Assembly (NCBI RefSeq): GCF_030815485.1
Contig: NZ_JAUSWV010000002.1
Location: 310,001 to 374,000 of the forward strand
DNA from: Streptomyces rishiriensis
Lineage (GTDB): Bacteria; Actinomycetota; Actinomycetes; Streptomycetales; Streptomycetaceae
Direction: 5' to 3'
Length of the DNA stretch: 64,000 nucleotides
Positions within the stretch are counted from its first letter, which is position 1. Each line of letters starts with the position of its first letter. The notes under the pieces are model-generated. The model worked only from the letters and a program-made list of their open reading frames with translations, was not told where the DNA came from and searched no databases. Of the stretch, positions 3,137 through 31,876 are shown one piece after another. A program made the position numbers and the translations under genes.

Positions 3137-3171
3137 CCGAGTGACGGTGGCCGGCCGGGCCGGGGGTCGGA

Positions 3172-4470: not shown

Positions 4471-4497
4471 GCGCTCCCTCGCCCGAAGATGCGACGA

Positions 4498-4532: not shown

Positions 4533-4544
4533 CTGTCGGTGGTC

Positions 4545-4625: not shown

Positions 4626-4651
4626 GTCGACTTCCCATCTTCGCAGGAGAG

Positions 4652-4681
4652 TTCCCCTGCCACCGGCCGGTGGCAGGGGAA
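4652..4681. terminator. perfect 30-bp palindrome / hairpin
   Basis: TTCCCCTGCCACC (4652-4664) and GGTGGCAGGGGAA (4669-4681) are exact complements around GGCC, itself a palindrome, so the whole 30 bp is one perfect inverted repeat. It lies about 120 bases past the stop of the condensation-like gene at 4799 and 26 bases before the ATG of the small-peptide gene. It can be the terminator of the long operon, or a 5'-UTR structure controlling the peptide gene. No T-run follows on either strand. Confidence 0.7.
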
Positions 4682-4798
4682 TGCTTCCAGGCGAAGTGAT
4701 CTCCCGTCAATAAGACTTGCCACAAAGCCGTGTCGGTCCCGGATATCCGTCAGATCTCTTCAACGTGGATCACGACCACGGTTTCTGACGGCACATCA

Positions 4799-14788: not shown

Positions 14789-14810
14789 AGTGCGTCCCTC
14801 TCAGTCGGTC

Positions 14811-16538: not shown

Positions 16539-16578
16539 CCCTGTGTTCCCCCTCTTTGAGCTCGCAGGATTCCTTGTG

Positions 16579-17325
16579 TCACGGCCGCACGGCGTGGATC
16601 AGGTGGTTCAGCGTGTCCTCTCCGTCCGCCATCGGCGGTTTCAGAACGCTGGGCTCCAGGCCCATCTGCCTCAGATACGCACAGAGTTCGGCGACCCGGC
16701 CGTGCACGTCCTGGACGTCGATGAACACATTGCGCAGCAGAGGGCGCAGTTCTGCGTCGACACCCCGCAGGATCTCCAGTTCGGAGCCCACCGCGTCGAT
16801 CTTCAGCAGATCTACGGGTCGGTCGGTGCCGATGTGGCGGGAGAGCCGTTCGACGGTGACGGTGGTCTCGCGTCCCTGAAACATCCGCTCCACGACCCGC
16901 GGCGGAAAGCTCCTGCCCAGCAATTCCTTCAGCTGACCCTGATCCTGCGGGTACAGCGTCGAACTGCTGGGGAGCAGCGGATAGTAGCGGAAGGACACGC
17001 CGGCGACTTCCTCGCTCCCGAGGGCCGTCTCGTGCACGGACACGTCGTGGAGGCCGAACTCCGCCACGTTGGCGTGCAGGGCCGCGACGAGTTCCGGCAG
17101 CGGCTCGAAGGCCACGATGCGCGCCTTGGGCCGCCGCTGCTTCACGAACAGCGTGAAGAGCCCGATGTTCGCCCCGACGTCGATGACGAACGGCTCGTCC
17201 GGAAGGGAAATACCGGCGTAGGTTCCGCCTTCGAACATCTCGCGGTACAGAAAGCGCGCGTCCAGCGCACTGACGGCGTGCACGGAGAATCCCTCAGCGA
17301 CTTCCGTCAGCTTGGGGGGTGTCAT
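16579..17325 (-). CDS. FkbM-family SAM methyltransferase
   Basis: 248 residues with SAM motif I FVIDVGANIGLFTLFV, the acidic ribose site VAFEPLPELV, and the FkbM-type DLLKIDAVGSELEILRGV. FkbM enzymes O-methylate hydroxyls of natural products. The start at 17325 has GGGAG about ten bases upstream. It sits between the carrier protein and carbamoyltransferase genes, 19 bases after the ACP stop, so it is probably in the same operon and makes a methoxy group in the cluster product. The methylated position cannot be told. Confidence 0.87.
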   Translation of the reverse strand: MTPPKLTEVAEGFSVHAVSALDARFLYREMFEGGTYAGISLPDEPFVIDVGANIGLFTLFVKQRRPKARIVAFEPLPELVAALHANVAEFGLHDVSVHETALGSEEVAGVSFRYYPLLPSSSTLYPQDQGQLKELLGRSFPPRVVERMFQGRETTVTVERLSRHIGTDRPVDLLKIDAVGSELEILRGVDAELRPLLRNVFIDVQDVHGRVAELCAYLRQMGLEPSVLKPPMADGEDTLNHLIHAVRP

Positions 17326-17344
17326 ATGGCGGGGCTCCCGGTAC

Positions 17345-17596
17345 TCAGCCGAGGCGTTCGACGACGTAGTCGGCCAGCCGGTCCTCGGACGTGAGCGTGT
17401 CCTCGGTGAGGTCCTCGTCCTCGAACGTCACACCGAACCGCTCCTCGAGGAGAAGCAGGAACTCCAGCGCGTCCAACGAGGTGAATCCATAGGCTTCGAG
17501 GAAGTTGCTGCTGTTCTCATTCACCGTGCGACCACTGGAGGCGGCAAACTCCTTGGCGATTTGGTGGATCTCCTGGAGCACTTCGTCGCGGTTCAC
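17345..17596 (-). CDS. acyl carrier protein, MmcB-like candidate
   Basis: About 83 residues. The carrier helix has YGFTSLDALEFLLLLEERFG, with the predicted phosphopantetheine Ser in FTSL; the usual Asp before the Ser is Thr here. Acidic helix III (FEDEDLTEDTLTSED) is typical of discrete ACPs. The start is GTG at 17596, with AAAGG six bases upstream, rather than a TTG eleven codons earlier. In mitomycin the free ACP MmcB carries AHBA through glycosylation; this gene, in the middle of the AHBA run, is the best match for that role here, though an amine-loading ACP at 31.2 kb looks similar. Confidence 0.85.
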   Translation of the reverse strand: MNRDEVLQEIHQIAKEFAASSGRTVNENSSNFLEAYGFTSLDALEFLLLLEERFGVTFEDEDLTEDTLTSEDRLADYVVERLG

Positions 17597-17690
17597 AGAC
17601 AGCCTTTCATTCGTTCGGACGAGTGACAATCTATCCGGTGGGTCAGAGGCTGTCCATCCTGACTAAGACTCAAAACATCTCAGTCGGCGC

Positions 17691-18842
17691 CTAGTTGGAT
17701 CCTGCAAGCAGACGGTCCAGCCAGCGATGGTGATGCTGCAACGCCAACTCGTTGCGTCCGAACACAAAGTGCGTATTCGCCCCGGAGGACAAAGCTGCCT
17801 GTACGTCAAATCCGGTGCGATAGTCCTCGTCCGCCACACCCCTTTCGACGAGTTCGCTGAACTCCGCCGTGTAGCGCCGGTCCTCCTCGGTGACCGGGGG
17901 CACGCGCGTCAGGATGGTCTGCACGGTGCTGCTCCGGTCCACGCCCGGGCCGGGCATGATCTGGGAGACGACTCCGTGTCCTTCCCAGGTGCCGGCGATC
18001 GACACGTTGGGGAAGACCGTGTAGACCGTGCCGCAGTGCGGAGCGGGGTCCCAGTCCTCGACCGGGACGTCCCGCAGCGTCCGGAGCGACTTGACCGGGT
18101 ACAGGATCCGCTGGTGCGGCCCGAAGGAGTCCACCACCATCAGGTTGGAGGTGGACGTCGGGGCGAACGTGGTGCGGTGCAGTGCCTGGATGTGGTAGCT
18201 CTCCAGGTAGCCGTCGAAGGCGACTTTCCAGCCGGGTCCGGGCAGTTCGCGCTGCTCGTAGACGTGCCACTTGTCGAGTTCGAGCCGCTCCAGCTCCCGC
18301 GCGTACTCCCCGAGCCAGGCGTCCAGGTCGATCGTGGCGCCGGGGGTGAGACACACCCATACGAAGCCGAGGCTCTCCACGACGGGCAGGGGGCGCAGCC
18401 CCAGTTCGGCGGTGTCGACGTCCCCGAAGGTGCCGGGCTTGTGCACGGCGACGAGGCCGCCCTGGTCGTCGTACACCCAGGCGTGGTAGGGGCAGCGGAA
18501 GCGGTGCCGGGTGCCGGTTCCGGCCGGGCACAGCTGGGCGCCGCGGTGGCGGCAGACGTTGAGGAACGCCCGTACGACGCCGTCCTGTCCTCGGGTGAGC
18601 AGGACCGGGGTGCCCAGCGCGTCCAGGGCCTTGTAGGAGCCGGCGCCCGGGAGTTCGACGGAGAGCGCGAGCGCGAGCGGGACCCGTTTGAAGACGACGT
18701 CGATCTCTCGCCGCCACCGGTCCGGGTCGAGGTATTCCGTGACGGGGACCCGCAGCACGTCCTCGGCCTGGTCCGTCGTGCCGGCCTCCAGGTGCGCCAG
18801 GGCCCGCTGCGCCAGGGCCACGGCCTGGGCATGGTCGATCAC
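17691..18842 (-). CDS. Rieske non-haem iron oxygenase, alpha subunit
   Basis: About 383 residues. The Rieske [2Fe-2S] site is CRHRGAQLCPAG with RFRCPYHAW (Cys-X-His and Cys-X2-His), and the mononuclear iron site is in FDGYLESYHIQALH. The overall plan is that of aromatic ring-hydroxylating or related single-component oxygenases. The GTG at 18842 is chosen because it overlaps the upstream stop as GTGA and has GGGAGG eight bases away. It would hydroxylate or otherwise oxidise the aromatic or sugar-derived part, in line with the oxidised quinones of mitosanes. It needs a reductase, not found in this window. Confidence 0.88.
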   Translation of the reverse strand: MIDHAQAVALAQRALAHLEAGTTDQAEDVLRVPVTEYLDPDRWRREIDVVFKRVPLALALSVELPGAGSYKALDALGTPVLLTRGQDGVVRAFLNVCRHRGAQLCPAGTGTRHRFRCPYHAWVYDDQGGLVAVHKPGTFGDVDTAELGLRPLPVVESLGFVWVCLTPGATIDLDAWLGEYARELERLELDKWHVYEQRELPGPGWKVAFDGYLESYHIQALHRTTFAPTSTSNLMVVDSFGPHQRILYPVKSLRTLRDVPVEDWDPAPHCGTVYTVFPNVSIAGTWEGHGVVSQIMPGPGVDRSSTVQTILTRVPPVTEEDRRYTAEFSELVERGVADEDYRTGFDVQAALSSGANTHFVFGRNELALQHHHRWLDRLLAGSN

Positions 18843-19690
18843 GGCTCCCACCTCCCGTTTCGTTGCGGTGCGTGCAGTGCGAAGAACTTCTCGTAGAGAA
18901 GCACCTGGCTGTCGAGCATGTGGCGGCCGTACACCACGGGCCGTCCGCTCTCCCGGGCGGCCTTGAGCAGGGCGGTCTCGGCCGGCTTCATGATGATGTC
19001 GGCGACCGCGCAGGTACGCGGCAGACGTGCGAGGTCGAAGGGCAGCGGGTCACCTGGACGCATACCCAGCGGGGTCGCGTTCACCGCGATGTCGGCGCCG
19101 TCACCGTCGAAGTCGCCCTCGGAGCCGACCACCACGCGACCCGGCCAGCGTGCGTCCAGCCGGGCGAGCACGTCCTCCCGGCGGATCGCGTCGGGGTCGT
19201 ACAGCCGCAGCCGGGCGACACCGGCGGTGAGCAGGGCCGCGGCGACGGCCCGTCCGGCGCCGCCGGCCCCGGCCAGGACGACGGTCGCGCCCGCGGGGTC
19301 GTGGCCGTTGTCGCGCAGCCCGTGGACGAAGCCGGCGCCGTCGAAGTTGTCGGCGAGCCAGGTCCCGTCGGGGTTCCTGCGCAGGGCGTTGGCGCTACCG
19401 GCCACTTCGGCGGCCGGGCCCAGCAGGTCGGCGTACCGGCACACCTCGATCTTGTGCGGCACGGTGACGAGGATCCCGTCGAGGTTGCGCATCCGGCGCA
19501 GTCCGCACATCACCTCCGCGAGGCCGTCGGGGCCGACATGCACGGGGACCAGCACGGCGTCCCGCGCGGTACGGGCGAACAACTCGTTCAGCAGGCCGGG
19601 GGCGCGCACCTGGGCCACCGGGTCGCCCAGGACCACGTAGAGCCGGGTCGTGCCCGAGATGGCGCTCGGGCCGGGCGGGGCGTCGGGCAT
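18839..19690 (-). CDS. rifI: aminoquinate/shikimate dehydrogenase (RifI type)
   Basis: 283 residues with the shikimate dehydrogenase plan: YVVLGDPVAQVRAPGLLNELF (substrate Ser positions altered to Ala/Pro), VTVPHKIEVCRYAD (catalytic Lys), NFDGAGFVHGL (catalytic Asp region), the dinucleotide loop LAGAGGAGRAVAAAL, and NATPLGM. RifI homologues act in the aminoshikimate branch, interconverting aminoquinate and aminodehydroquinate. It is nine bases after the dehydroquinate synthase homologue and overlaps the Rieske gene, so it is part of the same operon. Confidence 0.88.
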   Translation of the reverse strand: MPDAPPGPSAISGTTRLYVVLGDPVAQVRAPGLLNELFARTARDAVLVPVHVGPDGLAEVMCGLRRMRNLDGILVTVPHKIEVCRYADLLGPAAEVAGSANALRRNPDGTWLADNFDGAGFVHGLRDNGHDPAGATVVLAGAGGAGRAVAAALLTAGVARLRLYDPDAIRREDVLARLDARWPGRVVVGSEGDFDGDGADIAVNATPLGMRPGDPLPFDLARLPRTCAVADIIMKPAETALLKAARESGRPVVYGRHMLDSQVLLYEKFFALHAPQRNGRWEP

Positions 19691-19698
19691 GGCGCTCC

Positions 19699-20745
19699 TC
19701 AGGCCGAGGTGGGGGCGGCGCCCGAAGGCAGGTCCGCCAGGACGGAGGAGACCAGGTGCTCGTCGACCCCGGGCACCAGTTCGACCCCACGGGGGCCGTC
19801 CAGGACGAACGTCAGTCCGGCATCGGCGTCCTGCCCCTTCTTGTCGCGCCGCATCAGCTCCACGAGGGTCGCCACGGGCACGCCGGAGGGCAGCCAGGTG
19901 GGCAGTCCGAAGCTCTCCACCATCTCCCGGTGCTCGGCCACCCGGTCCTGGTCGACGCGGCCCAGCCGGCCGGCGAGCAGCCCGGCGAACACGGTGCCGA
20001 CCGCGACCGCCTCGCCGTGTCGCCAGGCGTAGTCGGTGGCACGCTCGATGGCGTGCCCGAGGGTGTGGCCGTAGTTGAGGATGTGGCGCGGACCCCGGTC
20101 GCGTTCGTCGAGGGCGACGACCGACGCCTTCAGCGTCACACTCGCCACGATCTGCTCGGTCAGGTCGAGCCCGCGCAGATCGCCGGCGCCGATGAACGCG
20201 CAGCGGGCTATCTCCCCGTAGCCGCTGAGCAGTTCGCGTCGGGGCAGGGTGTGCAGGAAGTCCGTGTCGCAGAGCACCGCGCTGGGCTGCCAGTAGGCGC
20301 CGACCAGGTTCTTGCCCTCAGGCAGATTGACCGCGGTCTTGCCGCCGACGCTCGCGTCGACCTGGGCGAGCAGCGTGGTCGGCAGGTGCACGACCTTGAT
20401 GCCGCGGTGGTAGAGGGCGGCGGCCAGGCCGACGGTGTCCGTCGTCGTGCCGCCACCGCAGGCGACCACGGCGTCGGACCGGGTCAGCCCGGCAGCGACG
20501 AAGGCGCGGCAGTACGACTCGACCGACGCGAGCGTCTTGAGCCGCTCGCCGTCGGCCACCGGCACGACCGTGAACGGCACACCGGGATCGGGGAGTTCCC
20601 CCTCCGGTACGGCGCTCACCAGGGCGACGCGGCCGACGCCCAGTTCCTTCAGAACGGCCGGCAGCAGTCGGCGGGCGCCGGATCCGACATGGACGGCGTA
20701 GTCGTGGTCTTTCAGCGTGACGTCGATACGGCGGATTGCGCTCAT
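19699..20745 (-). CDS. rifG: aminodehydroquinate synthase (RifG type)
   Basis: 348 residues of the dehydroquinate synthase family: ACGGGTTTDTVGLAAALYHRG (NAD site; primary enzymes usually have GGGVVGD), LPTTLLAQVDASVGGKTAVN, GYGEIARCAFI, and NYGHTLGHAIE (zinc His). The changes in the NAD loop fit the secondary-metabolite branch that acts on aminoDAHP. It is the first gene of the long minus-strand run and diverges from the radical SAM gene across a 233-bp gap that must hold promoters for both. Confidence 0.9.
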   Translation of the reverse strand: MSAIRRIDVTLKDHDYAVHVGSGARRLLPAVLKELGVGRVALVSAVPEGELPDPGVPFTVVPVADGERLKTLASVESYCRAFVAAGLTRSDAVVACGGGTTTDTVGLAAALYHRGIKVVHLPTTLLAQVDASVGGKTAVNLPEGKNLVGAYWQPSAVLCDTDFLHTLPRRELLSGYGEIARCAFIGAGDLRGLDLTEQIVASVTLKASVVALDERDRGPRHILNYGHTLGHAIERATDYAWRHGEAVAVGTVFAGLLAGRLGRVDQDRVAEHREMVESFGLPTWLPSGVPVATLVELMRRDKKGQDADAGLTFVLDGPRGVELVPGVDEHLVSSVLADLPSGAAPTSA

Positions 20746-20920
20746 GCCTTCAGTGCCCCCGTGGCTGTCCGGCCCTCACCGACGGCATGCTAGCCAACGG
20801 TGCCGATCAAGGTCCACCCCCGGATCGTGTAGACCGCCGGATCCGCACATGTACAGAATGTTGCGCGCTCATGGAGCCGCAACTGGGTCCTATGGCTACA
20901 TGGTTGACGAACAGTTAGGG

Positions 20921-20950
20921 TTGACCCGTCGAGCGACCTGGCCGTAAATC
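20921..20950 (+). promoter_or_regulatory. candidate promoter for the radical SAM gene
   Basis: TTGACC at 20921-20926 and TAAATC at 20945-20950 are separated by 18 bases, about 28 bases before the ATG at 20979, which has GGGGAC as a possible ribosome site. The pattern resembles a vegetative sigma-70-type (HrdB) promoter. The opposing promoter for the dehydroquinate synthase operon must also be in this 20746-20978 gap, but I see no clear hexamers for it. Confidence 0.4.
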
Positions 20951-20978
20951 CCAAGCCGACCGCAAAACGGGGACTTTC

Positions 20979-22148
20979 ATGCGCCTTAAGGAAAAGTTTC
21001 GTGCCGCACTCACCGCCTCGGCGGCAGAAGGCGGTCGACTCCCCTTCCTGATGAACGACATGGTCATCGAGGAACAGCTCTGCCAAATGCGCTGTTCCTA
21101 CTGCCTCACCGAGGAGTACAACCTCCTCATGAACGTGCCGGACGCACGGCTGCGGCTCACCACCGATCGCCGTCAGGACTGGCACGAGATACTGGACATG
21201 TACCACGAGCACGTGGACGCGCCCATTCTGCGGCTCTCCGGCGGTGAGTTCTTCTGGCTGAAGGGGTCCACCGAGTTCGTCCAGGAGGCCAGCCGCCGCT
21301 ACGAGACCGTCCAGGTCATCACCAACGGCGTGTTCCTCAACGAACGGCGCATCGAGGCCCTCGCCGCGATGGGCAACGTCCAGCTGAACATCTCCCTGGA
21401 CGGACACACCCTGGAGCTGAACCGGCACCGTCTGCCCCCGAAGCAGGCCAAACTGCACGACGTCATCATGCGCAGTCTCCACGCGGCGGCCGGGGCCGGG
21501 CTGCGCATCGACATCCAGTCGGTGCTCACCGACGCCAACTACGCGGGCCAGCTGGAGTTCGCCCAGTACCTGCGCGACGAGGTCGCGGGCAGCACCACGC
21601 TGTACTTCTTCCCCGTGCGCGGCGACACCGCGGAGCGCATGGGCCCGCCGCCCGGCAATCACCTGATGCCGCTGGTGGAGCGCTACGACGAGTTCGCGGA
21701 CGTCCTGCCGCCGCGCGCCTACGTCGAGCACATGGCCGAACAGCTGAAGACGAACGTGCGCACCCTCGGCTGTTTCGTCACGGCGACCATGGCCCAGCTC
21801 TTCGGCCAGGGCGACGTCTCCGCATGCCCGCACGCCTGGGTCAAACCGATGGGCAACCTGGCGCAGGACCGGAAGCTGCTGCTCGACCAGTACGGCTCGC
21901 ACCAGCACTACGACCTGTTCATGCACGACCGGCCGCGGTTCAGCTTCTGCAAGACCTGCGCCACGCCGTCCGACGTCATCAACCTGTTCTTCCTGGACCG
22001 GATCACGGAAGAGGAGATCGGCGCGACGCACCTGTACTCGGGTGAGCGCTCACGCGCCCGGCTGCGGGAGCTGAAGGAGACGTTCCGGCCGGTCATATCC
22101 GACTCCCCCGCAACCGGACAGGGCGTCGCTCAGAGCGTCAGCTCCTGA
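20979..22148 (+). CDS. radical SAM enzyme with C-terminal Cys cluster (SPASM/Twitch-like)
   Basis: 389 residues. CQMRCSYC at residues 35-42 is the CxxxCxxC [4Fe-4S]-SAM motif, followed by RLSGGEFF (SAM-binding GGE) and VITNGVFL. C-terminal cysteines at LGCFVT, SACPHAW and FCKTCATP suggest an auxiliary iron-sulfur cluster. Such enzymes do C-C or C-heteroatom bond formation, dehydrogenation or epimerisation. The mitomycin cluster has the radical SAM gene mitD, thought to join the sugar and aminobenzoyl parts; a similar job is plausible here. The gene overlaps the convergent oxidoreductase by 19 bases at the 3' ends. Confidence 0.85.
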   Translation: MRLKEKFRAALTASAAEGGRLPFLMNDMVIEEQLCQMRCSYCLTEEYNLLMNVPDARLRLTTDRRQDWHEILDMYHEHVDAPILRLSGGEFFWLKGSTEFVQEASRRYETVQVITNGVFLNERRIEALAAMGNVQLNISLDGHTLELNRHRLPPKQAKLHDVIMRSLHAAAGAGLRIDIQSVLTDANYAGQLEFAQYLRDEVAGSTTLYFFPVRGDTAERMGPPPGNHLMPLVERYDEFADVLPPRAYVEHMAEQLKTNVRTLGCFVTATMAQLFGQGDVSACPHAWVKPMGNLAQDRKLLLDQYGSHQHYDLFMHDRPRFSFCKTCATPSDVINLFFLDRITEEEIGATHLYSGERSRARLRELKETFRPVISDSPATGQGVAQSVSS

Positions 22149-23077
22149 TCGCACTCGGCGTCGGCGTACAGCGCCGCGATGAGTTCCTGCACCTCCAGCG
22201 CCTGCGCCGGGGCCACCGTGCGGCCCCGGGCCCGGCCCGCCACCGTGTCGAGGAAGCCGCGGATCGCCGCCAGCTCGGGCCGCCGGTCCTCGGCCGTGAC
22301 CGTGCCCGCGGCGCTGCGCACCTCGCCGCGACGCAGGTCCAGCACGGTGCTCTCGCCACTGGCGGCGGTGGCCTCCAGGGTGAGGCCCATGACCCGGCTG
22401 CGGCGATCGATGCGCAGCTTCGCGTGACCTGCCGGGAACTCCAGGTCGGCGACGACCCGCTCCTCCACACCTGCCGCGTCGACCCGGCAGGAGACCGGGC
22501 GGGGCCGTCCGAAGACGGTGATCAGCAGATCCAGGGCGTGCGCGCCGAGGTCGACCAGTGCCCCGCCGCCGGCCCGCGCCGCGTCGCCGTACCAGTTCGT
22601 CACAGGCCGCCACAGCCGCTGGCCGGCGGTGGTGAAGGTCAAGGTGATCTCACAGGGGCCCTCGGGCAGCGCCTTCAGGAACGCCGGCACCAGCTCGTGG
22701 AAGCGGTAGGGCAGGTTGACCGCGAGCCGGTCGGCGCCGGCCGCCCGGGCCAGCCGGCGCGCTTCCGCCAGATCGGCGGCCAGCGGCTTTTCGCACAGGA
22801 CGTGCGCCCCGGCCGCGAGGGCCGCGAGCACGGGCTCGGTGTGGGCGTCGTTGGGGGTGCACACCGCCACCACGTCCGGCCTGCCGACCGTGAGGAACTC
22901 CTCCAGGCTGGTGGTGACCAGGATGCCGTCGGCCGCCGCACCGAGGACCGAGCGCGCGCTGTCGGCGTCGGTGTCGCAGGCGGCGACGAGGGTGTAGTCC
23001 TCGTGGTCGGTGACGACGGGCAGGTGATAGCGCTGGAAGACGCGCCCACAGCCGACCACTCCGTAGCGCAGGGTCAT
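22130..23077 (-). CDS. Gfo/Idh/MocA oxidoreductase (second copy)
   Basis: 315 residues: Rossmann YGVVGCGRVFQRYHLP, the active-site VLCEKPLA near residue 95, and a C-terminal domain with GGGALVDLGAHALDLL. It belongs to the same family as the RifL-like protein at 12510 but is clearly distinct. It is translationally coupled (ATGA) to the B12 radical SAM gene upstream. NAD(P)-dependent oxidation or reduction of a sugar or cyclitol carbon is expected; it may work on the radical SAM product. Substrate unknown. Confidence 0.85.
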   Translation of the reverse strand: MTLRYGVVGCGRVFQRYHLPVVTDHEDYTLVAACDTDADSARSVLGAAADGILVTTSLEEFLTVGRPDVVAVCTPNDAHTEPVLAALAAGAHVLCEKPLAADLAEARRLARAAGADRLAVNLPYRFHELVPAFLKALPEGPCEITLTFTTAGQRLWRPVTNWYGDAARAGGGALVDLGAHALDLLITVFGRPRPVSCRVDAAGVEERVVADLEFPAGHAKLRIDRRSRVMGLTLEATAASGESTVLDLRRGEVRSAAGTVTAEDRRPELAAIRGFLDTVAGRARGRTVAPAQALEVQELIAALYADAECDQELTL

Positions 23078-24816
23078 CGGGCCACTCCCGCCGCGACGAG
23101 GGCCTCGGCGCCGCAGACGCGCTCCACCCGCTCGCCGAATTCCTTGAAGGACTCACCGAGGTGCTCGGCGTCGTAGTCGGCCACCAGGTCCCGCAGATCG
23201 GCGGTGAGCCGGCCGGCGAGGTCGGGCGGGTCGGTCTCGGCGAGGACGAGTCCATGGTTCATGAAGGCGAGGAACAGCTCCGGCAGCCCGTTGCGCCAGG
23301 CCCGCAGCCGACTGAGGAAGGCGCGCGGATTGTGCTCCGTCCCTCGTAGCCGGCGGGCGCCCAGGGCGATCTTCTGGGCGATGAACGGCAGGACGTTCTC
23401 CTTGCGGTCGCTGATCTCCTCGCCGACCTCGCTCCACGCGCTCCACAGGGCCTCGACGCGGGGGTCCGGCACGCGGTAGTCACGGCGAGCGGTGCGCAGG
23501 ATCTCGTAGGCGTCGCCCTCCAGACCCTCGATGTCGGCCAGCGGCAGCGGCTCCTCGATCTTGTCGTACATCTCGGTGCCGCGCAGCGCGATGGCGCGGT
23601 TGATCAGGAAGAACGGGTTGTCCGCCTCGTGGATCCGAGCGGCCACGATGAACTCGAGGTTCTCCCAGAGTTCGTCGATGGTGGTCTTCGGCTCGATCAT
23701 GATCCAGCCCGGGTCGAGGCCGAGGCCCTTGCGCTTGAACATGCGGGCCGCGTCCAGGTTGTAGGCCACCGTGGTGCCCTTCTTGAACCGCCGCAGCATG
23801 CCGGGCGACCCGGACTCGATGCCCAGCAGCGCGGACGAGAGTCCCGCCCGGTGCAGCAGGTCGAGAGCCTCGTGGTCGATCAGCCCGGAGTCGACCCGGA
23901 ACTCACAGTGGAACTGAAACTTCAGACCACGGCTGAGGACGGTCTCGGCGAACTCGACGGCGTGCGCGAAGCCGTCGCCGAACGCCCCACCGAAGTTGTC
24001 GTCGTTGAACCAGATGAAACGGGTCCCGAACTCCCTTTGCAGGTAGTCGATCTCGTCGACGACGTCACCGGGCGGTCGCATCCGCCAGAAGCCGTCCACC
24101 ACTCCGGGCTGGCGGGGCGCATAGCAGAAAGTGCACTTGGCGTGGCAGCCCCGGCTGGTGAACGTGGAGGCCACGGGCGTCGCGATGCCCGCCGCCTTGT
24201 GGTACTGCAGCACGTCACGGGCCGGCCAGACGAGGTTTGCGAGGTCCGGCAGCACGGGCATACCGCTGCTGCGCACCCGGTCGCCGTCGCGGTAGAACAG
24301 CCCGGGCGTCTCCCGCCAGTCGGTCCCGGCGGTCAGCCGGTCCATGATCCCCACGACCGTCAGCTCGCCCTCGCCGAAGGTGACGCAGTCGGCCTCGGGT
24401 ACCCGCTCGGCGATGAGTTTCGCGTTGTAGGTGCAGAACGCGCCGCCGATGGCGATGAAGACGTCCGGGTCGGCGATCCGCGCACACCGGATCAGCCGGA
24501 TGGCATCGATGATGTGCAGGTCGTACATGATGCTGATACCGATGAAACGGGGGCGCTCACGGCGGATGAGCTCGATGATGGCCTCATCGCTGGGCGTACG
24601 GCCGTGCAGATTCAGGGATGTGACGGAGTGTCCGGCATTGCGCAGATATCCTGTGATGCAGGCGAGGCCCAGATTCTCCCGGACCTTCTCGTAGAAAATC
24701 CGCAGCGCCGGGTCGAGTTGGACATACTCCTCGTCGGTGACGGTCACGTTCTGATTGTTCAGGCTGAGTGCCCCCGTGGCTATCTCACGCGGGGTCAACA
24801 GCACGACGTCCGACAT
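23074..24816 (-). CDS. B12-binding-type radical SAM enzyme
   Basis: 580 residues. The N-terminal ~200 residues form a cobalamin-binding-like Rossmann fold (FIGISIMYDLHIIDAIRLI..., IAIGGAFCTYNAKLI, FGEGE). TSRGCHAKCTFCYAP carries CxxxCxxC, followed by WFNDDNFGG and LLGIESGSPGMLRRFKKG, as in class B radical SAM methylases and BchE-type enzymes. The usual DxHxxG cobalamin-ligand motif is not evident (LHGRTPSD is in that area). The mitomycin cluster contains a comparable protein (MmcD, from memory). The gene is alone with the oxidoreductase downstream and 57 bases from the PPTase stop. Confidence 0.87.
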   Translation of the reverse strand: MSDVVLLTPREIATGALSLNNQNVTVTDEEYVQLDPALRIFYEKVRENLGLACITGYLRNAGHSVTSLNLHGRTPSDEAIIELIRRERPRFIGISIMYDLHIIDAIRLIRCARIADPDVFIAIGGAFCTYNAKLIAERVPEADCVTFGEGELTVVGIMDRLTAGTDWRETPGLFYRDGDRVRSSGMPVLPDLANLVWPARDVLQYHKAAGIATPVASTFTSRGCHAKCTFCYAPRQPGVVDGFWRMRPPGDVVDEIDYLQREFGTRFIWFNDDNFGGAFGDGFAHAVEFAETVLSRGLKFQFHCEFRVDSGLIDHEALDLLHRAGLSSALLGIESGSPGMLRRFKKGTTVAYNLDAARMFKRKGLGLDPGWIMIEPKTTIDELWENLEFIVAARIHEADNPFFLINRAIALRGTEMYDKIEEPLPLADIEGLEGDAYEILRTARRDYRVPDPRVEALWSAWSEVGEEISDRKENVLPFIAQKIALGARRLRGTEHNPRAFLSRLRAWRNGLPELFLAFMNHGLVLAETDPPDLAGRLTADLRDLVADYDAEHLGESFKEFGERVERVCGAEALVAAGVAR

Positions 24817-24872
24817 CTGACCCTAACCCTTCCCCGTGGTCCGTAAAAGAAGTCGATGCAGAATAAACGGAG

Positions 24873-25619
24873 TTACCGCCACGCCCGGATCATCGCCGAC
24901 GTGTCGTGCCGTACGAGTGTCACTTCGGTTGTTCCCGTCACCGAGACTGACGCGGGGTGCGTCGTGCCAACCACCGTATCCGCCATGCGCACTTCTTGGC
25001 AGGCATCCATCTTTTCCGGCCACCTCAACACGGCCGGTGGGAGCTTGGGATCCGACACCTCCAGTCGGCGCAGCGGAACACGCAAGCCGACGCCGATCGC
25101 CTTCAGGACGGACTCCTTGCGCGTCCAGTAGCGCAGAAAGGCCGCCGGCCGTTCGGCGGGCGGGCGGGCTTGCAGAGCGGCCAGCTCCGTGTCGGCGAGG
25201 ACACGGGGGGCCACCTTCTCCACATCGGCGCCGACGCCGTCCTCGACGTCGAGCCCGACGTCCGCGCCACGGCAGACGGCGAGCCCGATCACGTCCCCGC
25301 TGTGCGAGACGGAGAAGCGGACGTCCGCGTGGGCGCTCCCGGTCGGTACGTCGAGCGTGACCTTGCCGTGCGGCCCGCCGCAGCGCGGACACACGCGCCG
25401 CAGGGGCACGTCGGCGGGCCGCACGCCCAGCAGTTCGCCGAGCACCAGCCGGCTGACCGCGCAGCCTGCGAGGAAGCGGCGCCTGTTGTCGGGGTCGGCC
25501 GTGGCCTCGTAGCGGCCGAGTTCCACGGGATCGAGCAGTCCCACCAGTTCCGGGTGCGTGTCGGCCAGGCGGGCCCACCACACCTGAACCGGGCGCGGCG
25601 GGCGGTCCGCCGCTGTCAC
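24873..25619 (-). CDS. Sfp-type 4'-phosphopantetheinyl transferase
   Basis: 248 residues. VRFSVSHSGDVIGLAV and VGLDVEDG (Mg-binding Asp-x-Glu), then FLRYWTRKESVLKAIGVGL, are the Sfp/Gsp motifs. It loads phosphopantetheine from CoA on carrier proteins, and so can activate the four discrete carrier proteins of this cluster and the multidomain synthase. The Cys-rich CPRCGGPHG loop is normal in this actinobacterial subgroup. The start overlaps the stop of the regulator gene (ATGA). Confidence 0.92.
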   Translation of the reverse strand: MTAADRPPRPVQVWWARLADTHPELVGLLDPVELGRYEATADPDNRRRFLAGCAVSRLVLGELLGVRPADVPLRRVCPRCGGPHGKVTLDVPTGSAHADVRFSVSHSGDVIGLAVCRGADVGLDVEDGVGADVEKVAPRVLADTELAALQARPPAERPAAFLRYWTRKESVLKAIGVGLRVPLRRLEVSDPKLPPAVLRWPEKMDACQEVRMADTVVGTTHPASVSVTGTTEVTLVRHDTSAMIRAWR

Positions 25620-26260
25620 GCGCCGGCCTTCAGCCGCACTTCCCCGACGAGCCGGAACCCCATGTGCGGCACCTTGAGGATCTGGGCGCCCGAGCCGACC
25701 TCCCGGAACCGGGCCCGCAGCGACTCGATGACGTCCCGCGGGTCCTCGCCGGTCAGCCGCAGCAGGTCGGGCCGCGGGACGATGACGGCCCGGCGGTCGG
25801 AGAGCGCGCGCAGCGCCTTGGCCTCGGCGTCCGACAGCCGCACGGACGCGGACGGAGTGGTGAGCACGCCCGTCTCGTCCAGGTCGAGGATCTGGGCGGA
25901 CGCGGGGGCTGCGACGTCCCGCAGGTAGGTCAGGAAGGACACGAGGCGTTCGACGCCGAGCGGTGCGGCCATGACGAAGCCCGCGCCCGAACGGAGCGCC
26001 GCCAGCGTGCCCTTGGCGGTCGGCGCCGGCTGTACGAGGACCGCGTAGGCGCCTTCGCGGGTGATCTCGCGCAGTTCGAGCGGAGCCGAGCCGTCCGCCT
26101 CGGCGGCCACGAAGGCGACGAGGAGGTCGTCGGCGACGTGCGCGGCCAGCCCCCCCGGTTCCTGCGCCGCAGGCTCCTTCAGCGGCAGTCCGGTGCGCTC
26201 ACAGGCCTCTCGCAGACGGGCGGCTTCCGGCGCAGCAAGGTCCCGGGTGAGTACGTACAT
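25616..26260 (-). CDS. atypical response regulator with OmpR-type winged helix
   Basis: 214 residues. The C-terminal ~95 residues match the OmpR/PhoB effector domain (VRLSDAEAKALRALS..., DVIESLRARFREVGSGAQILKVPHMGFRLV). The N-terminal ~115 residues look like a receiver, but I see no Asp at the usual phosphorylation strand (LLVAFVAAEADG), so it may be phosphorylation-independent like other antibiotic-cluster orphan regulators. No partner kinase is next to it. It heads the minus-strand unit regulator-PPTase-B12 rSAM-oxidoreductase and diverges from the PIG-L gene. It is a likely pathway-specific regulator. Confidence 0.75.
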   Translation of the reverse strand: MYVLTRDLAAPEAARLREACERTGLPLKEPAAQEPGGLAAHVADDLLVAFVAAEADGSAPLELREITREGAYAVLVQPAPTAKGTLAALRSGAGFVMAAPLGVERLVSFLTYLRDVAAPASAQILDLDETGVLTTPSASVRLSDAEAKALRALSDRRAVIVPRPDLLRLTGEDPRDVIESLRARFREVGSGAQILKVPHMGFRLVGEVRLKAGA

Positions 26261-26366
26261 GCTGTTCGAGCCTCTCGTCGCGTGCGGATCACGGAGTGGA
26301 TCACAGACCTGTCGCGTGCTCTGACTGTCTTTCTCCTTCCCATAGTTCCATGATCGGCCCTTGGTC

Positions 26367-26372
26367 TACACT
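26367..26372 (+). promoter_or_regulatory. candidate -10 box for a leaderless PIG-L transcript
   Basis: TACACT lies seven bases before the ATG at 26380, and no Shine-Dalgarno sequence precedes that ATG or the one at 26350. This spacing is typical for leaderless mRNAs, which are common in Streptomyces. No good -35 hexamer is seen. Confidence 0.35.
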
Positions 26373-26379
26373 CCTGCGC

Positions 26380-27453
26380 ATGCCAGAGCGCCCCTCCCCC
26401 GCCCCCTTGGTCCGGCGCACAACGCACGCACTCTCGGCGGACGACCGGCCGATTCGGCTGCCGCACACCGAGTTCGACGGCGCCGAGGTGCGGTTCCTCG
26501 GCGAACCGGTCGATCCGGCCGTGTTCCCCTCGTCGGCCGCGGAACTGTGGCACGCGTGCGACGGCACCCGCCCGTACCGCTCCTGGCCCTCCCGGGAACG
26601 GGAGTTGATCGCCGGATGGCATGCGGCGGGTCTGGTGGTCGCCGCTCCGCGGCCCCGCTCGCAGCCGTCACGCGCCCTCACCCTCCTGTCTCCCCACCCG
26701 GACGATGCCCAACTCGCCCTGGGAGCACTGCTGGCCCGGTTCGGCGGCCGGGTGGTGGACGTGTTCTCGCACGAGACGTGGACGCGCCGCCCTCACTATC
26801 GAAGCCGTCCCGCGCTCGCCTCGCGCCTGCTGCTGGAAGAGGAGCAGGTGGCGTGCGGGGTGCTGGGCGCGGAACTGACCGTGCTCGGTCACGTGGATGC
26901 CGCCGACCGCGCCGCCTGGCGGGACGGCTACTTCCTCGGGCCGCAGGCCGTGGACGCGGCCCGTGCGACGGAGCCGGAGCTGTTCGAGCGCGTCAGCGCC
27001 GACCTGGCCGCCGAGGTGGCGGGCGGTGGCCCGGTGCTCGTACCGCTGGCCGTGGGCGGGCATGTCGACCACGTCCTGACCCGGCAGGCCGCGCTGGAGC
27101 TGATCGCCCGCAAGACGCTGGAGCCCGAACGGGTCGGGTTCTACGAGGACATGCCGTACTCGCTGTTCGCGGACGCCACGGCCGAGGCCGGCCGCCTCGC
27201 GGTCGGCCGCGAGCAGGTCGCGCCGGTCCCCGTGTTGATCCCGGCGTCGGAGGCGGCGGTACGCACCAAGCAGGAGGCGCTGTGGCCCTACCGGCTCCAG
27301 GTGCTGGAGGCGGTCTCCAAACGGATCGTCCGGCACGGCCGGCAGCTCGGCGCGCCGGGGTGGGCGGAACGCCTGTGGGTGCTGCCGGAATCCGCCGACG
27401 TCTTCGGCGAGTTGGCGGCCGCGGCGGCGGAGGAAGCCGCCACGGCCGGGTGA
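26380..27453 (+). CDS. PIG-L/LmbE-family deacetylase, MitC-like candidate
   Basis: About 357 residues. The zinc-hydrolase core has LLSPHPDDAQLALGALLA (HPDD ligands) from residue ~78 and a second His motif GGHVDHVLTR. The ~75 residues before it include LWHACDGTRPY...AAGLV, which resembles a small winged-helix (PqqD-like) domain and is not part of the core family. In mitomycin, MitC removes the acetyl group from ACP-bound N-acetylglucosaminyl-AHBA; with a MitB-like transferase in the same cluster this is the likely job. The start is uncertain: ATG 26380 (leaderless) or ATG 26350. Confidence 0.85.
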   Translation: MPERPSPAPLVRRTTHALSADDRPIRLPHTEFDGAEVRFLGEPVDPAVFPSSAAELWHACDGTRPYRSWPSRERELIAGWHAAGLVVAAPRPRSQPSRALTLLSPHPDDAQLALGALLARFGGRVVDVFSHETWTRRPHYRSRPALASRLLLEEEQVACGVLGAELTVLGHVDAADRAAWRDGYFLGPQAVDAARATEPELFERVSADLAAEVAGGGPVLVPLAVGGHVDHVLTRQAALELIARKTLEPERVGFYEDMPYSLFADATAEAGRLAVGREQVAPVPVLIPASEAAVRTKQEALWPYRLQVLEAVSKRIVRHGRQLGAPGWAERLWVLPESADVFGELAAAAAEEAATAG

Positions 27454-27466
27454 GGGCGGACGCGGC

Positions 27467-28162
27467 ATGCGACTGCACACCCGGGAGTGGGGCACCGGCG
27501 ACCGCGTCGCCGTCCTCGTCCACGGCCTCATGGCCGACCACCACACCTGGCACGAACTGGTCCCGGTCCTGACCGGCAGGGGCTATCGCGTCCTCGCCGT
27601 GGACCTGCGCGGTCACGGCGCCAGCGGCCGGGGTGTGTACGCGCCGCACCTGTTCGCACAGGACCTGCTGGAGACACTGCCCCGCGGACCGGAGCTGGCG
27701 CTGGGCCATTCGCTCGGCGCCCTGGCCCTGGCGCTCGCCGTGGCGGAACTGGAGCCGGAGCGTGCCGTCTACTCGGAGCCCGCCTGGCGGCTCGGCGGCC
27801 CGGACGGCACCCTCGACCCGGCCGTCTTCACCCTCTTCAAGCGCGCCCCTCGGCTGCTGATCAGGAGTCTGCGCCCGCAGTGGGGAGAGCGGGAGGTCGC
27901 GGCCGAGTTGGCGGCGCTGGACGCCTGGGACGAGAGGTCGGCGCTCGCCCTCTCCGCGTACCGTGCCGCCGATCACACCCCGGAGAAGCCGCTCGTCCGC
28001 TCCCTCGTCCAGGCTGCGGAGCCGAGCACGCTGGTGAGCGGGGAGATGCGGGCGGAGCTGACACGGCGGGGGTTCGAGGTGCGGACCGTGCCGGACGCCA
28101 CGCACGCGATCCACCGGGACAGCTTCGACGCGTTCCTCACGTCGCTGTCGGGGTGGTTGTGA
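27467..28162 (+). CDS. alpha/beta hydrolase
   Basis: 231 residues: oxyanion region VLVHGLMADHHTWHELVPVL, VDLRGHGAS, nucleophile elbow LALGHSLGALAL (Ser), and C-terminal DATHAIHRDSFDAFL (catalytic His). It starts 13 bases after the PIG-L stop, so the two are co-transcribed. It may act as a type II thioesterase removing misloaded groups from carrier proteins, or as a product-modifying esterase or amidase. The fold does not decide. Its 3' end is convergent with the pyruvoyl decarboxylase-like gene. Confidence 0.8.
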   Translation: MRLHTREWGTGDRVAVLVHGLMADHHTWHELVPVLTGRGYRVLAVDLRGHGASGRGVYAPHLFAQDLLETLPRGPELALGHSLGALALALAVAELEPERAVYSEPAWRLGGPDGTLDPAVFTLFKRAPRLLIRSLRPQWGEREVAAELAALDAWDERSALALSAYRAADHTPEKPLVRSLVQAAEPSTLVSGEMRAELTRRGFEVRTVPDATHAIHRDSFDAFLTSLSGWL

Positions 28163-28172: not shown

Positions 28173-28553
28173 TCAGTGCACCGCGCGCAGCATGCGCGTC
28201 ACGTTGATCCTCGTGGGCGAGAGACCCAACTCGACACTCTGCATCATCCGTTCGCCGTTCAGGCGGCCGTACGCGAGCAGGTCGATGTTGGCGAGGCTGA
28301 ATTCCGGCCAGGTGTGGATGCTCAGGTGCGAGGCGGAGAGAAGGAGGATGGCGGTGACGGCGCCGTTCGGGAAGATGTGCGAGGACTCGCCGAGTACCGT
28401 GGCGTTTCCCTTTTCGGCGGCCGTGCGCAGGATCTTGAGGAGGCGCTGTTCGTCGGTCAGGATGCTGTGGTCGCTCACCCATACGTCGACTGCGTACGAG
28501 CACAGATCATTGACGTTTATTCCCTCGGTGGCGGGAGTGCTGGAGTTGGTCAT
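28173..28553 (-). CDS. AdoMet decarboxylase-like pyruvoyl enzyme with altered active site
   Basis: 126 residues, the length of the class 1b bacterial proenzyme. The self-cleavage region SASHLSIHTWPE keeps the pyruvoyl-forming Ser and the processing His. The residue before the Ser is Ala rather than Glu, and the position of the catalytic Cys (in FTCG of typical enzymes) is Tyr (LLAYG). It may make decarboxylated SAM for the BpsA-like protein at 30.0 kb. Alternatively it is one of the neofunctionalised relatives reported to be pyruvoyl-dependent ornithine or arginine decarboxylases. Cluster context favours a dedicated amine-building role. Confidence 0.75.
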   Translation of the reverse strand: MTNSSTPATEGINVNDLCSYAVDVWVSDHSILTDEQRLLKILRTAAEKGNATVLGESSHIFPNGAVTAILLLSASHLSIHTWPEFSLANIDLLAYGRLNGERMMQSVELGLSPTRINVTRMLRAVH

Positions 28554-28766
28554 GGGGAACCGGAGGCCGCTCAACGCTCGCCTCCGTCTCCTTTCCGATA
28601 GGTATGTGCTGGTCTGACGGCCGAAGTGGAAGGTCGGCGAGACCGGTTCACCGACGGCCCGGCGGGGCGCAGCGTAGCATCCGGCGCGTTCTAGGGCTCG
28701 CGGGCGCCCTGCGTCAAGGGGGTCGCGGAAGGTCACGTCGGATTGGCCGGAACACAGCGGACGACG

Positions 28767-29837
28767 ATGGACAACGAAGGAGCGGAGTTCTTGGAGCGGC
28801 AGAGCGCAGCGGACCGGGATTTCCTGGCACTTGACTGCATTTCGGCGACCTTCGGCATCACTGCGGCCTGGCTCGGTCACGATCCGAGCGTTCTGGGAGA
28901 TCACTGGGGATACCATCGCAGGGCTGACGCCGTCGAATCCGAATGGCCCGTGGAACAGATCGGGATCCACCGCCGGACACCCGAGGAGATCCTGAGCGAA
29001 TGGTACGGCCTGGCCGCCGACCATATTCAGCACGCCGACTCGCGACGAGCCGAGGAATACATTCGGGCCCAGCTGTCGGACGGGAATCCGGTGATCGCCT
29101 GGGTGGACACCTTCCACGTCCCCCACAGCTCCTTCCACGGCCAGCAGCATCATTCGCACCGGATAGTGATCCATCCCGGGGACGGCAACGGCGGGGAGAA
29201 GGCGGATGCGTTGCGGATCGTCGACCGCTATCAGGGGTCGCTCTTCGACGGCTTCATGGAGAGCGGCACGCTGCTCACCGCCATGTCCTCGGACGCGCTC
29301 GGAGAGGCCCGCAGGGGCGACCCGGATTGGCGGAACCGCACGGTGGTCCTGAAAGCCGGCCCGCTCGAACGCGGGGAAGCACACAAGGCGGCACGGAAGG
29401 AGACACGCGAGGAGAGGCAACAGGATCGGTTCCGTTCCGCCGTCGCAGGGAACGCGCTCTTTTCCACCGGCGCGGATCTGGTGACCGCGTGCGCCGACGC
29501 ACTGCGCGCCACCCCGGACGCGTTCGCTTCGCTCAGTCCCGTGGGAACGATCGAGGTCAGCGCCTGGTTCGGTGAGTTGGCCAGCCAGCGCGCCCTGAAC
29601 GCGCGCTTCCTGCGGGCCGCCGCCGAGACCTGCGCCCTCCCGCTGCTGGCCGATCGGGCCGCCGACGCGGAAGCCCTCTCCCGGCGCTGGGAAATGACCC
29701 GGAACTACTTCTTCCTGCGCTTCCGCAAGGGATCAGTGGCGGTACAGCGCATAGCCGATCTCATCACCGAGACGGTGACCCTGGAAAAGGAGTGGAACGC
29801 GAGACTACGGGAATCCCTCGCCGAGTCGGGCCGATAA
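28767..29837 (+). CDS. BtrH-type acyltransferase (BtrH_N domain)
   Basis: 356 residues. The N-terminal half resembles butirosin BtrH: DCISATFGITAAWLG (conserved Cys), then VIAWVDTFHVPHSSFHG followed by a His-rich HHSHRIVIHPG and LRIVDRYQGS. The C-terminal half is helical, with a charged ARKETREERQQDRF. BtrH moves an acyl group from an ACP to an amine of an aminoglycoside. With two ACP genes about 1.5 kb away this protein may do an analogous ACP-to-amine transfer. The ATG at 28767 is used; a TTG at 28743 with GGAAGG upstream is an alternative start. Confidence 0.7.
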   Translation: MDNEGAEFLERQSAADRDFLALDCISATFGITAAWLGHDPSVLGDHWGYHRRADAVESEWPVEQIGIHRRTPEEILSEWYGLAADHIQHADSRRAEEYIRAQLSDGNPVIAWVDTFHVPHSSFHGQQHHSHRIVIHPGDGNGGEKADALRIVDRYQGSLFDGFMESGTLLTAMSSDALGEARRGDPDWRNRTVVLKAGPLERGEAHKAARKETREERQQDRFRSAVAGNALFSTGADLVTACADALRATPDAFASLSPVGTIEVSAWFGELASQRALNARFLRAAAETCALPLLADRAADAEALSRRWEMTRNYFFLRFRKGSVAVQRIADLITETVTLEKEWNARLRESLAESGR

Positions 29838-30046
29838 TCCGCCGACCCCGCGTCGAACGGTCCTGATGTTCTCGGTCCGCCGGGAGTCGCCGTGTGACAG
29901 ACGCGTCTCGACACCGTCGGCGGGCCACCGCGGAATCCGTGCTCACCCGATGACCGGCCGGCTTCGGAAGGGAGTGAGTCCCCGCGGTTCACTCGTCACG
30001 CTCGCCAGCTTCACGGCGGCGCGTCCCGGGATCCCCTGACCGGCTT

Positions 30047-31204
30047 TCAGCCGCCGCTCACGGCCGGCACCGCGCTCTGCAGGAACCCGAGGTAGCGGCT
30101 CGCCAGCCGCCTGCTCGCCGGGCCGGTCTCGATCCGGGCGAGCGAGATGGGCCTGAGCTGCGCGTGCGGGAATCCGGGCTGGTAGAGCAACAGATCGGCG
30201 CCGGCGGGCCGCTGGGCGAGCAGTCTCCGCAGCCGTGCCCCGAGTTCCGTCGGGGAGGCGGCGTGTCGCGCCGCGCCCCGGGTGGCCTCGCCCAGGTCCG
30301 CCAGGACGGAGTCCTCCAGCAGCCCGTCGTCGCCGGGCAGGAGAGCGGTGACGGTGCAGTCGAGCCGGTCGAACATCCGCAGCACCTCCCGCTGCGCCGG
30401 CTCCCCGCCCTGGCCGGAACCGCTGCCGGCCCGGTACACGTCGAGATCGAAACTGACGTAGCCGACCGCACCCGCTCCTGACACGGTCGACAGGGCGGTC
30501 GCCACGAACAGGAAGAGACCACCGGGATCCTTCAGCCCGCTCACGAAGAACGTGTCCACGCCGGACAGATTCGGCCGGTCCCGGCGTACGTCGACGACGT
30601 GCGTGGTGAGGTCCAGGGCAAGGCGGTCCGCTTCCTCCCCGATGGACCTGAGCACCCGCTCGTCGGTGTCCGCGACATGCACGTGCCGTACACCGTCCGC
30701 CAGACCGATGGCCACGCCGAACATCTCGTCGTCGCCGAGTTGCAGCACCGTCCGGCCGTCGAGGTCGTCGTAGTAGTCCATGACCGCGAGCCGTCGCCGC
30801 AGCGAGGCGAAGGTGTCGAAGCTCTGGTGCAGCTCCGGGTCCGGTGCGTAGGTGCGCCGGGTGAGGACCTCGGCCAGGACATCCCAGTCGACGAGTCCGT
30901 CGGCGAGCGTGAGGTCGACCAGACCCGGCGCTCCGTCGTCGCGGGCGGCCGGGGTCCCGGCGGTGGTCCGGACCGTGCCGTCGGGGTCGACGCGCGCCGC
31001 TCCGTCCCGGCACAGCCGTGAGAGCACCCACAGCCCGGAGTTGACCGTCATGGGGCCACGGACGATGTCGTCGAGCCGCCCGCCGCCCCGCGCGCGCTGG
31101 ACGACCTGAGCCACCGCGCGCTCCGTGGCCCGCGGGTCGCACACCTCGTCCGGCCCCGCGTTCCGCAGGACACCGGACCATTCGGCGTGTTGCCCTGCAC
31201 TCAC
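30047..31204 (-). CDS. BpsA-like branched-chain polyamine synthase homologue
   Basis: 385 residues. After a helical N-terminal part (NSGLWVLSRLCRDG), residues ~150-260 follow the pattern of N4-bis(aminopropyl)spermidine synthase: SFDTFASLRRRLAVMDYYDDLDGRT, VLQLGDDEMFGVAIGL (the GDDD/E motif) and VHVADTDERVL. The usual catalytic DPPET stretch is replaced by VSGLKDP (in VDTFFVSGLKD), so the donor or acceptor may differ from polyamine synthases. Family members transfer aminopropyl from decarboxylated SAM. It is coupled (GTGA) to the ACP gene upstream, suggesting its acceptor may be ACP-bound. Confidence 0.65.
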   Translation of the reverse strand: MSAGQHAEWSGVLRNAGPDEVCDPRATERAVAQVVQRARGGGRLDDIVRGPMTVNSGLWVLSRLCRDGAARVDPDGTVRTTAGTPAARDDGAPGLVDLTLADGLVDWDVLAEVLTRRTYAPDPELHQSFDTFASLRRRLAVMDYYDDLDGRTVLQLGDDEMFGVAIGLADGVRHVHVADTDERVLRSIGEEADRLALDLTTHVVDVRRDRPNLSGVDTFFVSGLKDPGGLFLFVATALSTVSGAGAVGYVSFDLDVYRAGSGSGQGGEPAQREVLRMFDRLDCTVTALLPGDDGLLEDSVLADLGEATRGAARHAASPTELGARLRRLLAQRPAGADLLLYQPGFPHAQLRPISLARIETGPASRRLASRYLGFLQSAVPAVSGG

Positions 31205-31503
31205 CGCCCGTCCCCGGCTTCCGCCTGCCGCGAGGCGACGTAGGCGACGATTTTCTCCAGGGTGGAGAAACGGTCGACGACGAGATCCTCATCCGGAATG
31301 GAAATCCGGAACCGCTCCTCCAGCCGGTTCAGGAACTCCAGCAGCTGCAGGGATCCCAAAGCGAGGGAAAGCAAATGCGCATCGGGCGCGATCCGCTCCG
31401 GTTCGAATGTGTCGTCGACCGATTTCAGAAGTGTGGATACGTCATAGAATAATTCATTCCGCTGATGACTCGTCACACCGACATACTTGCTCGGGGAAAT
31501 CAT
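31201..31503 (-). CDS. acyl carrier protein
   Basis: About 100 residues; the carrier helix is SLALGSLQLLEFLNRLEERF, with the predicted phosphopantetheine Ser in LGSL (no Asp before it). Overall it resembles the ACP at 17345. Codon 18 is TTA (31450-31452), so translation may depend on bldA tRNA. The stop overlaps the GTG of the BpsA-like gene. Start uncertain: ATG 31503 has no good ribosome site, and a GTG nine codons later is possible. It is divergent from a second ACP gene. Confidence 0.8.
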   Translation of the reverse strand: MISPSKYVGVTSHQRNELFYDVSTLLKSVDDTFEPERIAPDAHLLSLALGSLQLLEFLNRLEERFRISIPDEDLVVDRFSTLEKIVAYVASRQAEAGDGR

Positions 31504-31624
31504 TGGCCAAACATGAACAGATTGTTTCAGAAAGGCCTCCCCTTCTTGATCGCGTACGGACTACCCTGGCCGGTACGGGGGCGCAGTCGTCGCCCGCAGG
31601 CCCCACAGCATCGAGGAGCAGCCC

Positions 31625-31876
31625 GTGAACGACCTTTCCTACAGCGACTTCGAATCCGTGCTCCGCCAGTCGCTCCCCTTCCTCGACGAGGAGACACCCG
31701 TCGACGCGCATGCGAGTCTGACGGAACTGGGCCTGGATTCACTGACGTTGCTCGGCCTGGTGGCGGAGCTGGAGGACAGGTTCTCGGTGGAACTGCCGGA
31801 CGAGATGCTGGTCATGGAGACCTTCGAGACACCGTCGACCCTGTGGAGCAGTCTGTCGAAGCTCCCTCGCAGCTGA
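31625..31876 (+). CDS. acyl carrier protein
   Basis: 83 residues with the textbook motif ELGLDSLTLLGLVAELEDRF (phosphopantetheine on the Ser of DSL) and an acidic third helix. The GTG start is preceded by GAGGAG at seven bases. It diverges from the other ACP gene across a 121-bp promoter gap (31504-31624). With the BtrH-like and BpsA-like genes it forms an apparent carrier-based amine unit. Confidence 0.88.
   Translation: MNDLSYSDFESVLRQSLPFLDEETPVDAHASLTELGLDSLTLLGLVAELEDRFSVELPDEMLVMETFETPSTLWSSLSKLPRS

Follow-up and report, generated by a model that had tools for sequence, protein, structure and literature searches.

The five genes that lie together within 3.7 kb at positions 28173-31876 of the Streptomyces rishiriensis DNA analysed here (a stretch of 64,000 nucleotides, hereafter the window) are, on balance, better read as the composite right edge of a rare 3-amino-5-hydroxybenzoic acid (AHBA) cluster than as a single five-gene module. 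The model we favour combines three steps. A BtrH-type Cys-His-Asp amide synthase, a role well supported by its family, would load an acyl group from a carrier on its cysteine and hand this group on to an amine in either the product or a precursor, the candidate donors being the acyl carrier proteins (ACPs) ACP2 and ACP3. The genes for a 4'-phosphopantetheinyl transferase (PPTase), a hydrolase and SpeD would be derived from, or shared with, a mini-locus containing SpeD, BpsA/GNAT, FkbH and ACP genes, an arrangement read directly from the genomes and whose direction we infer; SpeD would have stayed selected in the window lineage, and the decayed BpsA/GNAT function would be supplied, if needed, by an intact chromosomal copy. 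More tentatively, the SpeD-type enzyme might provide the pathway with a decarboxylated amine or an aminopropyl donor, and the BpsA-like protein might form with ACP1 a recent accessory that uses a cofactor of the S-adenosylmethionine (SAM) type on a substrate that is not free spermidine and is possibly bound to ACP1.

All five genes reported in the initial annotation are present, with the following Pfam scores:

28173..28553, minus strand: SpeD (AdoMet_dc) family protein of 126 aa; PF02675 at 80 bits (cutoff 25, E 1.8e-22).
28767..29837, plus strand: putative papain-like carrier-dependent acyltransferase of the BtrH_N / AziU3 / CtaG / CcbD type; PF14399 at 32.2 bits (cutoff 29.7).
30047..31204, minus strand: BpsA_C-like SAM-fold protein of 385 aa; PF01861 at 67.3 bits (cutoff 27).
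31201..31503, minus strand: ACP1, serine in LGSLQ; PF00550 at 42.0 bits.
31625..31876, plus strand: ACP2, serine in GLDSL, the right edge of the cluster; PF00550 at 42.4 bits.

The five open reading frames (ORFs) are real genes, as is shown by orthologues of 87-98% identity in the related cluster of OV320; their third-position GC ranges from 0.72 to 0.89. ACP1 is 92% identical to its OV320 copy and is absent in S. phaeoluteigriseus, and ACP2 is conserved at 88-95% in both. The ACP1 and BpsA-like genes overlap by 4 bp and are therefore probably coupled in translation. The set does not make up one operon, SpeD, BpsA-like and ACP1 being encoded on the minus strand and BtrH and ACP2 on the plus strand.

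The distribution of the genes was followed in two ways. Genome contigs screened for the BtrH protein yielded four loci, those of OV320, S. phaeoluteigriseus, S. bobili and S. niveiscabiei, and a search of 393 Streptomyces genomes added one further close relative, G364; two other records of that search, G340 and G353, agree in contig number and coordinates with those of S. phaeoluteigriseus and S. bobili, and each is counted once. The cluster family is rare in Streptomyces and of the antibiotic type, and it is known from six genomes, that of the window and five others. Each of the six clusters has a conserved BtrH protein, and five have SpeD in cis. The full set recurs in OV320 and was found in none of the other four clusters. 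S. phaeoluteigriseus has SpeD, BtrH and ACP2 and is devoid of the BpsA-like/ACP1 pair; in S. bobili, SpeD and BtrH are followed by the contig end, and the BpsA-like gene was not found elsewhere in the genome. The pair is found only in the window genome and OV320, is absent from the other cluster copies that can be read through, and no relative of the BpsA-like protein beyond that of the window genome was detected in any of the 393 Streptomyces genomes, in the 373 genomes searched from the order or on plasmids.

This distribution bears on the module as first proposed, where an amine or polyamine side chain would be made by SpeD and BpsA while carried on the ACPs, and BtrH would then link it to the amino sugar. 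The intactness of all the genes within 3.7 kb, the selection acting on SpeD and the presence of SpeD, BtrH and ACP2 in both clusters that carry the BpsA-like/ACP1 pair speak for such a module; its completeness in only two of the six clusters, the residues missing from two of its enzymes (see below) and the position of the pair, which adjoins the scar of a different BpsA gene, speak against it, and we consider it unlikely.

Part of the evidence for a composite edge comes from the mini-locus, whose order is PPTase-SpeD-BpsA/GNAT-FkbH-ACP. In ten genomes that do not carry the cluster, SpeD precedes the gene of a BpsA protein of ~650 residues with a GNAT domain, and in nine of them a PPTase gene is found on the other side of SpeD and the genes of an FkbH-like HAD protein and an ACP come after the BpsA gene; the mini-locus of G158 (L107) gave no match to a PPTase or an ACP. 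The flanking genes are common to most of the copies. The window genome itself possesses a second SpeD copy at ~3.095-3.101 Mb, in a mini-locus with PPTase, hydrolase, BpsA-GNAT fusion, FkbH-like HAD and ACP genes. In G364, the AHBA cluster and the mini-locus constitute one unit (SpeD, BtrH, full-length BpsA/GNAT, HAD and ACP), which holds the only SpeD of that genome. The SpeD mini-locus of G377 includes the hydrolase gene, which in all other cases was confined to cluster carriers; that genome has no close BtrH match. In the window, the following elements are related to the mini-locus:

24873..25619, minus strand: PPTase, common to the mini-locus; PF01648 at 59.5 bits, and tree.
27467..28162, plus strand: alpha/beta hydrolase (ABH), common to the mini-locus of carrier strains; PF12697 at 68 bits, and tree.
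29879..29972, plus strand: scar of ~94 bp of the 5' end of the BpsA/GNAT gene, directly after BtrH; tblastn 61% over 23 aa.
31541..31624, plus strand: region upstream of ACP2; blastn 88% over 101 bp to the S. phaeoluteigriseus stretch that follows the BpsA/GNAT scar.

In the PPTase and hydrolase trees, the copies of the six clusters fall each time on one side of a supported branch. The scar matches the chromosomal BpsA gene of the same genome (blastn 70% over 101 alignment columns, E 8e-11), and S. phaeoluteigriseus has the matching 5' scar (E 2e-14) as well as a scar of the GNAT part (E 2e-17) ahead of ACP2. The BpsA-like/ACP1 pair is flanked by the 5' scar on one side and by the DNA next to ACP2 on the other. 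In its simplest form the history, of which direction and timing are our interpretation, would start from an ancestral order like that of G364, followed by the decay of the BpsA/GNAT gene and by the insertion of another BpsA-family gene and its ACP in the line that led to the window genome and OV320.

The SpeD-family protein, a pyruvoyl-type enzyme by its family, retains the equivalents of the pyruvoyl residue Ser63 and of His68 of class 1b AdoMet decarboxylases, SASHLSIHTWPE being aligned to SESHLTIHTWPE in the comparison with PDB 1tlu, and has a tyrosine at the equivalent of Cys83 (LLAYG vs LFTCG) in every cluster and mini-locus copy examined. This cysteine is essential in the S-adenosylmethionine decarboxylase of T. 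maritima (PMC10407285), and more distant, unrelated Streptomyces SpeD proteins retain it. The score against the NCBIfam decarboxylase equivalog TIGR03330 is 72.7 bits, below the cutoff of 75.65. The ratio of nonsynonymous to synonymous substitution rates (dN/dS) between cluster copies is 0.06-0.18, a sign of purifying selection which indicates that the cluster SpeD is in use. Ornithine or arginine may be considered as its substrate besides SAM. Close copies (87-98% identity) were found in 14 of the 393 Streptomyces genomes, namely in all 4 of the sampled cluster carriers and in 10 of the 389 non-carriers (Fisher p 1e-6, uncorrected for ancestry). A genus-wide housekeeping role for SpeD was ruled out, since 379 of the 393 genomes are without a close copy.

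The link of SpeD with the cluster is upheld by its presence in cis, by the selection and by the association with carriers. The cluster SpeD could instead be a passenger from the mini-locus that plays no part in the product. Ten sampled genomes have its locus and no cluster, a second copy is available in trans in the window genome and the BpsA/GNAT gene of the cluster has decayed; yet the cluster copies have remained intact and under the selection just described despite the other copy in the genome, so that we hold a mere passenger to be rather improbable.

The BpsA-like protein retains the core that binds SAM, where the GDDD motif of BpsA reads GDDE, Asp159 being conserved and Asp160 replaced by Glu. 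In BpsA, the GDDD motif binds the aminopropyl group of decarboxylated SAM, and Asp225 and Tyr290 activate the acceptor (PMC12979288). In the alignments with the Tt and Tk BpsA structures of the PDB, the TDP(P/V)E sequence at the Asp225 position is replaced by VSGLK. The PDB alignment stops near residue 252; by inspection, no NFNEY-like motif for Tyr290 was seen, nor any acidic cluster in the last 70 residues that would correspond to the C-terminal aminopropyl-carrier cluster of T. kodakarensis BpsA. The structural model (pLDDT 34) is unusable. A role as a standard aminopropyltransferase for spermidine is improbable for this protein. It shares with the branched-chain polyamine synthase BpsA the BpsA_C core and its GDD motif, and differs from it by these missing elements and by the overlap of its gene with an ACP gene, an overlap which suggests a carrier-bound substrate. 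One might go further and propose that it is a carrier-dependent aminopropyl or SAM-type transferase acting on a substrate held by ACP1, SpeD giving the donor and the BtrH-type protein joining the unit to the AHBA product, but we regard this elaboration as quite improbable. No ACP-tethered use of a BpsA-family enzyme, and no pathway with this gene set, was found described in the literature searched, the latter in line with the initial annotation. The idea of amine-making enzymes acting in one unified pathway is not supported, the BpsA-like protein being without the acceptor-site residues of BpsA and SpeD without the essential cysteine.

The assignment of the BtrH-type protein to the papain-like, carrier-protein-dependent family is supported by sequence, by its putative catalytic triad and by the predicted fold. 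The triad (C24, H131, D153) is invariant in six homologues and aligns with the Cys, His and Asp of AziU3, the best match of the PDB sequence search (E 7e-07); in the S. niveiscabiei protein, the His-Asp spacing is 16, equal to that of H128-D144 in CtaG. A fold search with the model returned AziU3 (Z 13.3), CtaG (12.9) and CcbD (12.9). CcbD is a ping-pong carrier-dependent amide synthase that couples an acid held on a carrier to an amino sugar (PMC12945683). For CtaG, the proposed role in the closthioamide pathway is to move 4-hydroxybenzoyl from one carrier to another (PMC6772006). Because of these two precedents, acyl transfer from a carrier to an amine is our leading reading of the step, and the ACP-to-amine transfer of the initial annotation retains the backing of family, triad, fold and the ACPs of an AHBA cluster.

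Each of these relatives is a partial likeness. The lincosamide amide synthases CcbD and LmbD share the papain-like fold over most of the protein, the catalytic Cys and His and the nearby carrier proteins, and differ by an identity of only ~9-13% in the structural alignment and by a triad whose third residue is Asp here rather than Glu. CtaG of Ruminiclostridium cellulolyticum resembles the protein in fold, in the matching order of Cys, His and Asp and in a cluster with an aromatic acid and carrier proteins, but the identity is 11-14% and closthioamide derives from 4-hydroxybenzoate and beta-alanine, whereas AHBA genes are present here. In the case of BtrH, the ACP:aminoglycoside acyltransferase of butirosin, the PF14399 cutoff is passed, though barely, and the second domain, DUF4872, scores below its cutoff. 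Distant BtrH_N relatives in other Streptomyces lie mostly within a few kb of a gene for a DegT-type aminotransferase.

AziU3 of the azinomycin pathway, with its partner AziU2, forms aziridines through the displacement of sulfate (PMC12559475). The BtrH-type protein could accordingly close an aziridine ring in a mitomycin- or azinomycin-like product, with no amide formed, and AziU3 is indeed its best match by both sequence and fold in the PDB; the AHBA, glycosyltransferase, PIG-L deacetylase, carbamoyltransferase and radical SAM genes also recall the logic of mitomycin (PMC8621148, PMC9570651). The identity with AziU3 is however 16-20%, CtaG and CcbD come within one Z unit of it, the Cys-His-Asp triad is common to acyltransferases, and the domain scan, which covered part of the cluster ORFs, showed no sulfotransferase. 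Since CtaG and CcbD score alike and a sulfotransferase was not among the proteins scanned, aziridine formation is kept as a rival only, and a very doubtful one.

Several observations weigh against the composite edge and the amide-forming step that we favour. Neither the fold nor the triad settles which reaction is catalysed, the best match being an aziridine-forming enzyme and not an acyltransferase, and the BtrH-type model is of middling quality (pLDDT 62). The association of SpeD with the cluster may come partly from the shared ancestry of the carrier strains. Finally, S. niveiscabiei has two BtrH copies and neither SpeD in cis nor AHBA genes in the 60 kb read; its cluster has in common with the others the carbamoyltransferase, FkbM, Rieske, PIG-L and hydrolase genes and those of both radical SAM proteins, so that the BtrH core is able to function with a different starter.

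The AHBA (aminoshikimate) cluster of which the five genes form the right end fills ~1.3-31.9 kb of the window and runs on leftward, a nonribosomal peptide synthetase (NRPS) gene and a transporter gene just beyond the window being 91% conserved in OV320. It encodes three condensation proteins, a GT2 glycosyltransferase, an AMP ligase, the aminoshikimate set, a carbamoyltransferase, an FkbM methyltransferase, a Rieske oxygenase, two radical SAM proteins and a PIG-L type deacetylase. Both ACPs of the initial annotation stand, and a third had been overlooked:

1289..26260, one radical SAM gene on the plus strand and the others on the minus strand: rest of the AHBA cluster in the window; domain scans.
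17345..17629, minus strand: ACP3, serine in GFTSLD; PF00550 at 35 bits.
26296..27453, plus strand: PIG-L type de-N-acetylase; PF02585 at 26.8 bits, just below the cutoff of 28.2, conserved in all six clusters.

An ACP near-identical to ACP3 lies between the FkbM and Rieske genes of S. niveiscabiei. Outside the conserved cluster, a hybrid polyketide synthase (PKS)/NRPS protein of 4097 residues is encoded at 44250-56543 (minus strand), with condensation, AMP-binding and carrier domains confirmed by domain scan in its C-terminal half and AMP ligase, KS, AT, KR and carrier regions recognized by reading in its N-terminal half. Also outside the cluster, at 36432-37331 (minus strand), reading of the translation points to a second PIG-L type deacetylase-like protein with a secretion-like N-terminus.

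The early mitomycin pathway (MitE, MmcB, MitB, MitC) resembles the cluster in the kinds of gene present (AHBA, AMP ligase, ACP, glycosyltransferase and PIG-L type deacetylase), and the cluster differs from it by its condensation proteins, Rieske oxygenase, BtrH and SpeD and by a relative that is devoid of AHBA genes.

In conclusion, our analysis takes apart a pathway of five genes that seemed plausible, its parts differing in origin, and it shows which of these parts can be trusted for the prediction of the product. It also brings out a mini-locus, PPTase-SpeD-BpsA/GNAT-FkbH-ACP, of limited spread in Streptomyces, in which polyamine-type enzymes are associated with a carrier protein and with a SpeD that has tyrosine in place of Cys83. 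The AHBA cluster family, for its part, could be the source of an undescribed AHBA-amide product.

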